The notes beneath the pieces are model-generated. The model was given only the letters and a program-made list of their open reading frames with translations. It searched no databases and was not told where the DNA came from. Shown one piece after another: positions 47,576 to 50,315 of a stretch of 64,000 bases of DNA (the first letter of the stretch is position 1; every line of letters starts with the position of its first letter). This DNA comes from Actinomycetota bacterium. Lineage in GTDB: Bacteria; Actinomycetota; Thermoleophilia; Solirubrobacterales; Solirubrobacteraceae. The stretch covers positions 62,001-126,000 of the forward strand of contig WLOQ01000005.1 of assembly GCA_009699245.1 (NCBI GenBank), read 5' to 3'. A program made the translations under genes and the position numbers.

Positions 47576-47950
47576 ATGTCACTCATTCCACTCGCCCAGG
47601 GCGGCATGCACGCCGCACAGGGCATGCAGGACCGCTTCGGCGGGCCGGGCGGGCCGCCGCAGGGCGGCGGACGGCCGGGCGGCTTTGACCACATGGGTGG
47701 TCACGGCGTCGACGAGGCGTCCTTCTGGATCGTCTCGTCGGTCGCGCTCGCACTCCTGATCGCACTCGTCGTCCTCGCCGTCCTGCTGCTGCGCGAGCTG
47801 CGCCGCCAGGGATCGATCCTCGCGCCTCGGCCCGCCGCCCCCGCAGCCGTCGCAGTGGAGCCGTCGCCCACGACCGCTGACGCCGACGTCGCAGCAGCAA
47901 GCGCCTCCGAGGCGCCGACGGTCGCGCAGCCGCCGCAGCCCGGGAGCTAA
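47576..47950 (+). CDS. Gly/Pro-rich single-pass membrane protein
   Basis: 124 residues with AGGAG seven bases before the ATG. The N-terminus is Gly/Pro/Met-rich and low in complexity (FGGPGGPPQGGGRPGG). One membrane helix follows (SSVALALLIALVVLAVLLLR), and then an Ala/Pro-rich tail. It is probably a small membrane anchor; no family recognised. It converges on the RDD gene with stop codons overlapping in CTA/TAA. Confidence 0.7.
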   Translation: MSLIPLAQGGMHAAQGMQDRFGGPGGPPQGGGRPGGFDHMGGHGVDEASFWIVSSVALALLIALVVLAVLLLRELRRQGSILAPRPAAPAAVAVEPSPTTADADVAAASASEAPTVAQPPQPGS

Positions 47951-48519
47951 TCCTGGGAGGCGTCTTCCGGGAGCCCCCGCCAGCCCTCGCGGCGGCGGGC
48001 TCCCGCCAGCGCCAGCGTGCGCAGGCGCGCGGTCTCCGCATCCCAGTCGTAGACAACTGCGGTGTCGGCGAGGTGGTCGTACAGCGCCTGGCGCGTACGG
48101 CCGACCACGATGCCCGCGAAGCCGATCCCGAGCGTGAGGAAACCGAGCGGGAAGCAGAAGAGTCGGCGCAGGGCATGCCGGCGGTCGAGTGGCGCCCCGT
48201 CCGAGCGCACGATGCGCAGGCCCATCAGGGACATGCCGGGTGACCGTCCGACGACGACCCACGAGTTGCCGAGATAGACCCCGGCCCAGATGAAGCTCCC
48301 CAGCGCCGACCAGCCGTCGTGGTCTGCGAACGTGACCCTGAGCGGGGTCGCCGCGTCGATGCCGAACTGCAGGAGGGCGAGTGCGGCCGTGTAGACGACG
48401 CCGATGATCAGCAGGTCCGCGCCCCACGCGAGCAGCCGACTGATCGGGCCGGCGTAGTGCCCCTGGATGTTCCGCTCGCCGGTGCGCCCGCGCCGTGGAC
48501 GCTCGTCGGCGACCCTCAT
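47947..48519 (-). CDS. RDD-family membrane protein
   Basis: 190 residues. An N-terminal polar part is followed by GPISRLLAWGADLLIIGVVYTAAL, the RDD start, and LGNSWVVVGRSPGMSLMGLRIV, the central RDD loop, then two more hydrophobic segments and a Tyr-Asp motif (RQALYDHLADTAVVYDWD). RDD proteins are polytopic and of mostly unknown function. The ATG overlaps the stop of the upstream nonapeptide-repeat gene (ATGA), so the two are co-expressed. Confidence 0.88.
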   Translation of the reverse strand: MRVADERPRRGRTGERNIQGHYAGPISRLLAWGADLLIIGVVYTAALALLQFGIDAATPLRVTFADHDGWSALGSFIWAGVYLGNSWVVVGRSPGMSLMGLRIVRSDGAPLDRRHALRRLFCFPLGFLTLGIGFAGIVVGRTRQALYDHLADTAVVYDWDAETARLRTLALAGARRREGWRGLPEDASQD

Positions 48520-49274
48520 GCGCCCGCGTCCGCTGGGCTTACAGGCTCATCGTCGCCGACGAGCAGCGGCGGGCCGACGGGCAGATCGGCGGCATCGCGG
48601 CGCAGCAGGCGGTTCACGACGCGCGCGGTGAGACCGTCGACGTTTGCGGTCTGTTCACGCGCCACATCGAGCGCCTCGCTCGCAAAGCCGCTGGTGGAGC
48701 GCGCCACGATCGTGCCGATGCGGGTCTCCTCGATGATCGCCTCGATATCCACCCGATCGACGATCTCGTTCACGTCGATCCGGTCGACAATCGCATCGAC
48801 GTCCACACGGCCGATGAGCTCATCCACATCGATCCGCTCGAGGATCCGCTCGATGTCGATTCGATCGACGATGGCGTCGACGTCGATCCGGCGCACGATC
48901 GCGTCGATGTCCGCGGCGCGCACCACTCGTGCGACGACGAGTTCGAGCACGGCCTGCAGGGCGTCGGTCGCCGCTGCCGGCGCAAGCGCGCGGACGCGGC
49001 GCCCATCGCGCGTCAGCGGCTCGAGTGCGGCTTCACCCATGCGACCGACGGCCGAAGCTCCGGGCAGCGCCCGCAGCATGCGACCCGCGGACTCCGCTGC
49101 GCGCCAGCTCGCGAGACTCGCAGCGATGCCGAGTCGCGCCACGCCTGCGGCAGCGCCGAGCGATGCGTCTGCGGCCACAGCGACCGGGTGCGGGACACGG
49201 CTCGACGCCGGCCCGGGCTCGAGCTGGACGATCTCAACCCAGATCGCGCCGGGCTCGCCACGCACGTCGGTCAT
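48516..49274 (-). CDS. Acidic nonapeptide-repeat protein
   Basis: 252 residues. There is no signal peptide and no membrane helix. Residues 129-182 contain six consecutive nine-residue units R(I/V)D(V/I)(D/E/N)xI(V/L/I)x (for example RIDVDAIVD). A degenerate copy precedes them. After the repeats comes a conserved-looking tail (TSGFASEALDVAREQTANVD, then a basic RVVNRLLRRD). A periodic acidic, aliphatic repeat could form a solenoid or long amphipathic surface. It overlaps the RDD gene, and such repeats next to RDD proteins may define a functional pair. The function is unknown. Confidence 0.8.
   Translation of the reverse strand: MTDVRGEPGAIWVEIVQLEPGPASSRVPHPVAVAADASLGAAAGVARLGIAASLASWRAAESAGRMLRALPGASAVGRMGEAALEPLTRDGRRVRALAPAAATDALQAVLELVVARVVRAADIDAIVRRIDVDAIVDRIDIERILERIDVDELIGRVDVDAIVDRIDVNEIVDRVDIEAIIEETRIGTIVARSTSGFASEALDVAREQTANVDGLTARVVNRLLRRDAADLPVGPPLLVGDDEPVSPADAGA
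48729..48890 (-). repeat. Six 27-bp coding repeats (nonapeptide units)
   Basis: The 162 bases encode six tandem copies of the R-I/V-D motif. Copies are degenerate at DNA level (GATCCG/GATCGA variants) but in phase, so they diverged under protein-level constraint. Confidence 0.85.
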
Positions 49275-49302: not shown

Positions 49303-49878
49303 TCAGAGCGCTGCGGGTGCGAGCGGCACGCTGACCATGAAGGCCACCGCCTGTTCGCGCGTCCAACCGGAGATGCTGATCTGCGAGAGCACGAACGGCA
49401 GCGTCACGCCCCAGAGCCCGGCGACGGCTTCGGCGTCGAGGTCGGTGCGGAAGACCCCCCGTTCTTGGCCGTGGCGCAGCAGGGCGACCACGGGAGCGCG
49501 GCGCGCGCGTCGACGCTCCGCATCCTCCACCGGGAAGAGCGGTGCGTAGCCGTACGGGCTGAAGCGCAGGCCGATCTCGAGCGACCGCTTGGAAAAGGAG
49601 CGCAGCTCGCCGACGGGGTCGGAAGCCTCTGAGTCGACCTCCATGCTCGCCTCGCGCATCTGCTCGACGAACCGCTCGTGGATCGCCCGGATGAGGTTCT
49701 CGCGGTTCTCGAAGTGCCGATAGACCGTCGCGCGATGGAGGCCGCTCGCAGCAGCGATCCGCTGGAGGCTCGCGCCCGGATCGGCGGCGAGCGCGGCACG
49801 CGCCGTGTCGAGAATGTGCTCGACATTGCGCTGGGCGTCTGCGCGGCGAGGGGCGGTGATAGGCCTACTGGTTTTCAT
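49303..49878 (-). CDS. TetR-family transcriptional regulator
   Basis: 191 residues from ATG 49878; the longer frame to 50004 covers the intergenic operator and is rejected. The N-terminal helix-turn-helix is [45 protein letters not shown] in short segments, with [11 protein letters not shown] the recognition part. The C-terminal ligand domain is unlike any group I recognise. A palindrome just upstream is the likely operator, and the divergent yjdM/phnA-like gene the probable target along with its own gene. Confidence 0.9.
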
Positions 49879-49884
49879 GTAGTC

Positions 49885-49911
49885 GGTTCCGGGGATTGGT
49901 TCCCGGGAACC
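49885..49911. promoter_or_regulatory. Palindromic operator between tetR-type gene and phnA
   Basis: A perfect 14-base palindrome GGTTCCCGGGAACC (49898-49911) is preceded by a second GGTTCC half-site 13 bases upstream (49885-49890). It lies 7-33 bases before the TetR-type start codon and 60-86 before the phnA-like start, a typical spot for autoregulation. Confidence 0.7.
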
Positions 49912-49970
49912 GCCCTGTACGCAAGCTAGCACCGGACGCACGGGAAGTGAGCCGGATACGCTCCGCGTCC

Positions 49971-50315
49971 ATGAGCGATGCCGTCGTCTGTCCCGAGTGC
50001 GCAAGCGAACATCACTACGAACTCGGCGGGATGCTCGTCTGTTCGATGTGTGCGCATGAGTGGTCTCCCGGGGGCGACGCGCAGGCCGACGCCGCCCCGG
50101 TGATCCGCGACGCGGTCGGGAACGTCCTCGCCGACGGGGACACCGTGACGGTCATCAAGGACCTCAAGGTCAAGGGCGGTTCCGGCCCGATCAAGGTCGG
50201 CACGAAGGTGCGCAACATCCGCCTCGTCCAGGGCGTCGGCGATCACGACATCGACTGCAAGGTCGATGGATTCGGCCCGATGCAGCTGAAGTCGAGCGTC
50301 GTCAAGAAGGTCTGA
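49971..50315 (+). CDS. YjdM/PhnA-type zinc-ribbon protein
   Basis: 114 residues from ATG 49971. An N-terminal zinc ribbon ([25 protein letters not shown]) is followed by a PhnA/YjdM C-terminal domain ([54 protein letters not shown]). The family is widespread and linked by name to alkylphosphonate genes, but its biochemical role is unclear. It is divergent from the TetR-type gene. Confidence 0.9.

Follow-up and report, generated by a model that had tools for sequence, protein, structure and literature searches.

A nonapeptide-repeat protein family encoded with RDD membrane proteins in Actinomycetota

The RDD family (PF06271) is a very common membrane protein domain whose function is little known. 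An RDD protein of Halobacillus has been reported to carry out Na+(Li+,K+)/H+ antiport that depends on conserved Arg and Asp residues (PMC5996927), and the RDD protein SppI has been reported to inhibit the SppA protease, with salt and alkali resistance unchanged on SppI overexpression or deletion (PMC7568657). An earlier, sequence-only reading of the DNA studied here held that neither partner of the gene pair described below has an assigned function; for RDD these two activities make it not entirely correct, although neither is obviously transferable to our protein. Fusions of RDD to VanZ are also reported to be common, and RDD is described as having a conserved site within the membrane that faces the cytoplasm (PMC12419801). 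A second point of comparison is the alpha-solenoids (HEAT, TPR, PPR, ARM), whose units span about 31–42 residues according to the available part of a review (PMC11514114).

Here we analyze a 64,000-nucleotide window from an actinobacterial genome, in which an RDD protein is encoded together with a repeat protein. Coupling of RDD to another domain or protein is shared with the VanZ-RDD and SppI-type systems, whereas a repeat solenoid is not mentioned for either in the available text of their descriptions (PMC12419801, PMC7568657). Our literature search, which left most subscription journals and preprints outside its range, returned no description of a repeat-RDD pair, nor any account of the partner family, its two unit lengths or its constant coupling to RDD. 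RDD itself is already known. An always-adjacent partner in two repeat flavours offers a direct handle on this domain, and natural repeat-RDD fusions can be purified, solved and mutated.

An overlapping repeat-RDD gene pair

The pair and its parts lie in the window as follows.

48516..49274, minus strand: nonapeptide-repeat protein gene, 252 aa; an open reading frame with homologues phylum-wide and no Pfam or NCBIfam family
48915..49187, minus strand: Ala-rich helical N-terminal region, residues 30–120 (AlphaFold2 helices 30–68 and 73–120)
48723..48911, minus strand: seven 9-residue units, residues 122–184, every unit predicted to form a 7-residue amphipathic helix and a 2-residue turn
48597..48719, minus strand: conserved C-terminal module, residues 186–226, mostly a single long AlphaFold2 helix (186–223)
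48516..48519, minus strand: ATGA overlap of four bases between the repeat-gene stop and the RDD start
47947..48519, minus strand: RDD family membrane protein, 190 aa, with three hydrophobic segments; PF06271 E=2.2e-18; signature R28, D35, D148

The in-phase units read DIDAIVRRI (residue 122), DVDAIVDRI (131), DIERILERI (140), DVDELIGRV (149), DVDAIVDRI (158), DVNEIVDRV (167) and DIEAIIEET (176), directly followed by a decayed eighth unit, RIGTIVARS. Arg precedes six of the seven D-units, which confirms the six strict R(I/V)D nonapeptides recognized in the sequence-only reading. The best 72-residue stretch gave 29 lag-9 self-identities against at most 18 in 5000 shuffles, and autocorrelation at lag 9 was 0.42. 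That reading had also called the repeats degenerate in DNA and strict in protein. The protein half of this statement stands and the DNA half does so in part, as Tandem Repeats Finder still detects the array (period 27, 5.7 copies, 68% matches). Long open reading frames also occur on the opposite strand of the repeat gene, and codon-position GC fails to separate the strands; relatives conserve the minus-strand protein, ruling out a high-GC antisense artefact.

Searches with the repeat protein found no Pfam or NCBIfam family at E values up to 1 and no plasmid match, and its relatives matched no family over cut-off except RDD in the fused forms. The downstream protein clearly shares the features of the RDD family, scoring 67.3 bits against the PF06271 gathering cut-off of 24.1, and is the only PF06271 protein in its genome among the matches found. 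R28 at the start of the first transmembrane segment (TM1), D35 inside it and the later D148 make up the R-D-D signature, which is invariant in 74 of 74 aligned RDDs of the collected loci, and hydropathy peaks near residues 36, 72 and 121 mark three hydrophobic membrane segments. It has 7 basic residues ahead of TM1, a single one in the first loop and 7 in the second. This positive-inside pattern would place the RDD N-terminus, and therefore the repeats of fused forms, in the cytosol. The repeat protein contains no segment of transmembrane strength (hydropathy maximum 1.55 over a 19-residue window).

Two further genes flank the pair. A TetR-family regulator gene (49303–50004, minus strand) lies upstream of the repeat gene, ending about 28 bp from it, and is possibly co-transcribed with it; in the closest relative, G015 (L040), the TetR gene does not adjoin the pair. 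On the other side, convergent with the RDD gene, is a gene for a small single-span membrane protein (47576–47950, plus strand), which is conserved in G015 (L004:2738–3145, minus strand) and matched no family above cut-off.

Constant pairing with RDD across Actinomycetota

An initial search, using a profile made from four repeat proteins, gave matches in 30 of 396 genomes of the phylum, and a second one, within the family of genome G302, in 43 of 121. Both searches together with a Rhodococcus opacus locus yielded 61 distinct nonapeptide loci, a count made without some weaker second-search matches and without L042, a contig-edge fragment that is the broken end of the array in G006. The RDD neighbour seen in the window recurred at every one of these 61 loci, directly downstream in 51 and fused in frame in 10, and a 4-bp NTGA overlap joins the two genes in 48 of the 51 unfused pairs. 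The four-base overlap noted in the sequence-only reading is real and typical of the unfused pairs, and the pairing itself is strongly supported. Locus L071, counted among the 61, has just one strict unit.

The sole search match lacking RDD, in G043 (one of the 30 genomes of the first search), proved to be antisense to an RTX nonapeptide gene and was excluded. At L072:6989–9445 (plus strand) lies a Ca-binding nonapeptide gene of the RTX type whose antisense frame mimics the repeat profile. In high-GC genomes such a frame is a trap for repeat searches.

Strict units number about 3 to 31 per protein (median 8) and change by whole units. G015 is exactly 27 residues, or three units, shorter than the window protein, and the remainder aligns. 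In G006, a second relative in the window's genus, one contig carries at least 12 units and a second contig 9, each breaking off within an array. Comparing the window with G015, we estimated dN of ~0.22, dS of ~0.81 and dN/dS of ~0.27 for the repeat gene, and ~0.16, ~0.77 and ~0.21 for RDD. These values indicate purifying selection on both genes and, with the exact 27-residue length difference, bear out the suggestion that the repeats are selected.

No third gene was found in more than five neighbourhoods, which gives the pair the look of a self-contained module. The neighbourhoods show no functional theme. One conceivable role is the sensing of lipids or lipid carriers, in which RDD would bind the head group of a lipid at a site exposed to the cytosol, with the solenoid relaying or blocking this binding. 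RDD is reported to be often fused to VanZ and its conserved intramembrane site to face the cytoplasm (PMC12419801), but no lipid or cell-wall gene recurs beside the pair, and we regard such a role as rather doubtful.

A 13-residue flavour and the clade of partnered RDDs

Other members of the window's genus first matched the repeat protein in the C-terminal module alone. Simple loss of the repeats was ruled out, as on inspection these seemingly repeat-less relatives carry 13-residue repeats. Such repeats, for example DSPGMERIVTRAV, are present in relatives from the window's genus, family and order, with lag-13 autocorrelation of 0.32–0.36 in the three tested proteins. In this flavour, too, RDD adjoins the repeat gene or is fused to it, and the C-terminal module is common to both flavours (hhalign E=8e-6, probability 84%), with R206, D213 and R226 near-invariant. 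The N-terminal region varies between relatives.

Genomes encode 1–6 RDDs each (30 genomes checked). In a midpoint-rooted tree with a small sample of unpaired RDDs, a single clade (support 96/87) takes in the partnered RDDs of both flavours, the window RDD included, apart from the other RDDs that these genomes encode. Of the 16 RDDs scored as unpaired, 15 lie outside this clade; the one inside it belongs to G027, where the repeat gene and its likely RDD each sit at the end of a separate contig (L126, L141), so that the pair has probably been split by assembly. The 13-residue clade adjoins the window's own group (91/85). As 13 minus 9 residues is about one helical turn, the simplest reading would be that the partnership arose once and that unit length then changed by about one turn.

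We also noted that loci L118–L123, from the same genus, carry the 13-residue flavour and RDD elsewhere in the genome, with no neighbours detected in common with the window. Within this genus the pair may thus have changed its position or been replaced.

Predicted fold and role of the repeats

AlphaFold2 modelled the repeat region as ordered, with one short helix per repeat (123–129, 132–138, 141–147, 150–156, 159–165, 168–174 and 177–183) leading into the long helix 186–223, at block pLDDT of ~80–87 across most repeats. Neither disorder of the repeats nor missing RDD neighbours, the two outcomes that would have told against the sequence-only reading, was thus seen. These are monomer models, and that of the window protein was built on a shallow alignment of 29 sequences; its pTM of 0.28 makes the relative placement of its parts uncertain. 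AlphaFold2 can also force regular solenoids onto repetitive sequence. In a naturally fused relative the repeats gave the same 7-residue helices (pLDDT ~79–81), and the RDD part was confidently predicted, with two long membrane helices and a third that is broken.

The unit consensus, D[LVI][DN]A[IVL][ALVI]xR[VI], fits short capped helices: Asp occupies position 1 in 96% of units, Asp, Asn or Glu position 3 in 84% and Arg position 8 in 62%, with aliphatic residues at positions 2, 5, 6 and 9, and for the 9-mer the hydrophobic moment is greatest at 100 degrees, as for a helix. We consider the repeats a predicted string of short helices. The acidic Dx(D/N) ladder might instead be a cytosolic cation or pH sensor that regulates the partnered RDD as a Na+(K+)/H+ antiporter, given the dependence of the one reported antiport on conserved Arg and Asp (PMC5996927). 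Helix capping demands the same acidic positions, however, and manipulating the related SppI left salt and alkali resistance unchanged (PMC7568657), making this quite improbable.

RTX repeats are Gly-rich, secreted and fold into a Ca-binding beta-roll. They share with our units a nine-residue period with Asp, but the unit consensus lacks the Gly pattern and does not match the GGxGxDxUx motif (GGxGxDxxx in its simpler form), and the repeat protein is predicted to be helical and cytosolic. Tandem helical units in variable number and an extended predicted shape instead recall alpha-solenoids, from which the repeats differ in having one two-turn helix per 9 (or 13) residues against the 31–42-residue units given in the available part of PMC11514114. 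The repeat protein matched no described repeat profile and no solved solenoid of the classical class, Foldseek returned no fold neighbour in the PDB or BFVD, and the PDB held no sequence match. We tentatively suggest a solenoid class unmatched in the solved-structure library, with one two-turn helix per 9-residue unit, extendable by a turn to 13, forming an adjustable cytosolic arm dedicated to one RDD clade; we put this somewhat short of even odds. Should such a solenoid prove real, its unit would be much shorter than in the helical solenoid families compared, and nature has run an experiment on repeat length and geometry across 9 to 13 residues and about 3 to 31 units.

The amphipathic units could also lie on lipid with no solenoid formed, making the protein a multivalent, phasin-like binder of membranes or lipid droplets anchored by RDD. 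The purely aliphatic hydrophobic stripe and the Ala-rich N-terminal helices are consistent with this, as is a weak, sub-threshold match of one relative (L045) to the Pfam Senescence domain (E=0.0037). Against it, Asp and Arg alternate on the charged face and Asp predominates, unlike basic membrane-binding helices, and AlphaFold2 sets the helices in a regular series with moderate confidence; we consider it unlikely.

Our preferred reading, to which we assign a probability of roughly 0.5, sees in the repeat protein a partner subunit in the cytosol, dedicated to a specialized RDD clade, its length-tolerant helical solenoid serving as an arm or as a regulatory or binding platform. The constant presence of RDD, the 4-bp overlap, the single partnered clade, the shared module and RDD of the 13-residue flavour and the lack of a third recurrent gene support it, as do the equal predicted helices, the moment at 100 degrees, the three-unit indel, the low dN/dS, the positive-inside charges and the absence of a transmembrane-strength segment. 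Counting against this reading are the low pTM, the 29-row alignment, the lack of a fold neighbour in PDB or BFVD and the missing neighbourhood theme, and the Ala-rich N-terminal region could contact membrane rather than protein.

We infer that the repeat protein and RDD very probably form one physical membrane complex, in which the solenoid has a regulatory or platform role. Two-turn amphipathic helices would pack with the Val, Ile and Leu residues at unit positions 2, 5, 6 and 9 on the inner face, Asp capping each helix start and Arg near its end. The C-terminal helix module, nearest RDD, would connect the solenoid to it, and translational coupling or gene fusion would yield a 1:1 ratio of the two proteins. 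Most likely a length-tolerant arm or binding platform, the cytosolic solenoid would then regulate RDD or deliver a ligand to its membrane site. The membrane-associated scaffold imagined in the sequence-only reading is plausible in this light; the polymer it offered as an option found no support, with no sign of self-assembly from the monomer models.

At one locus (L062:7195–10872) the pair sits among small membrane proteins and apparently stress-type proteins, and relatives of these neighbours also occur near L051, L054, L055 and L060, a possible functional hint for one set of actinobacteria.
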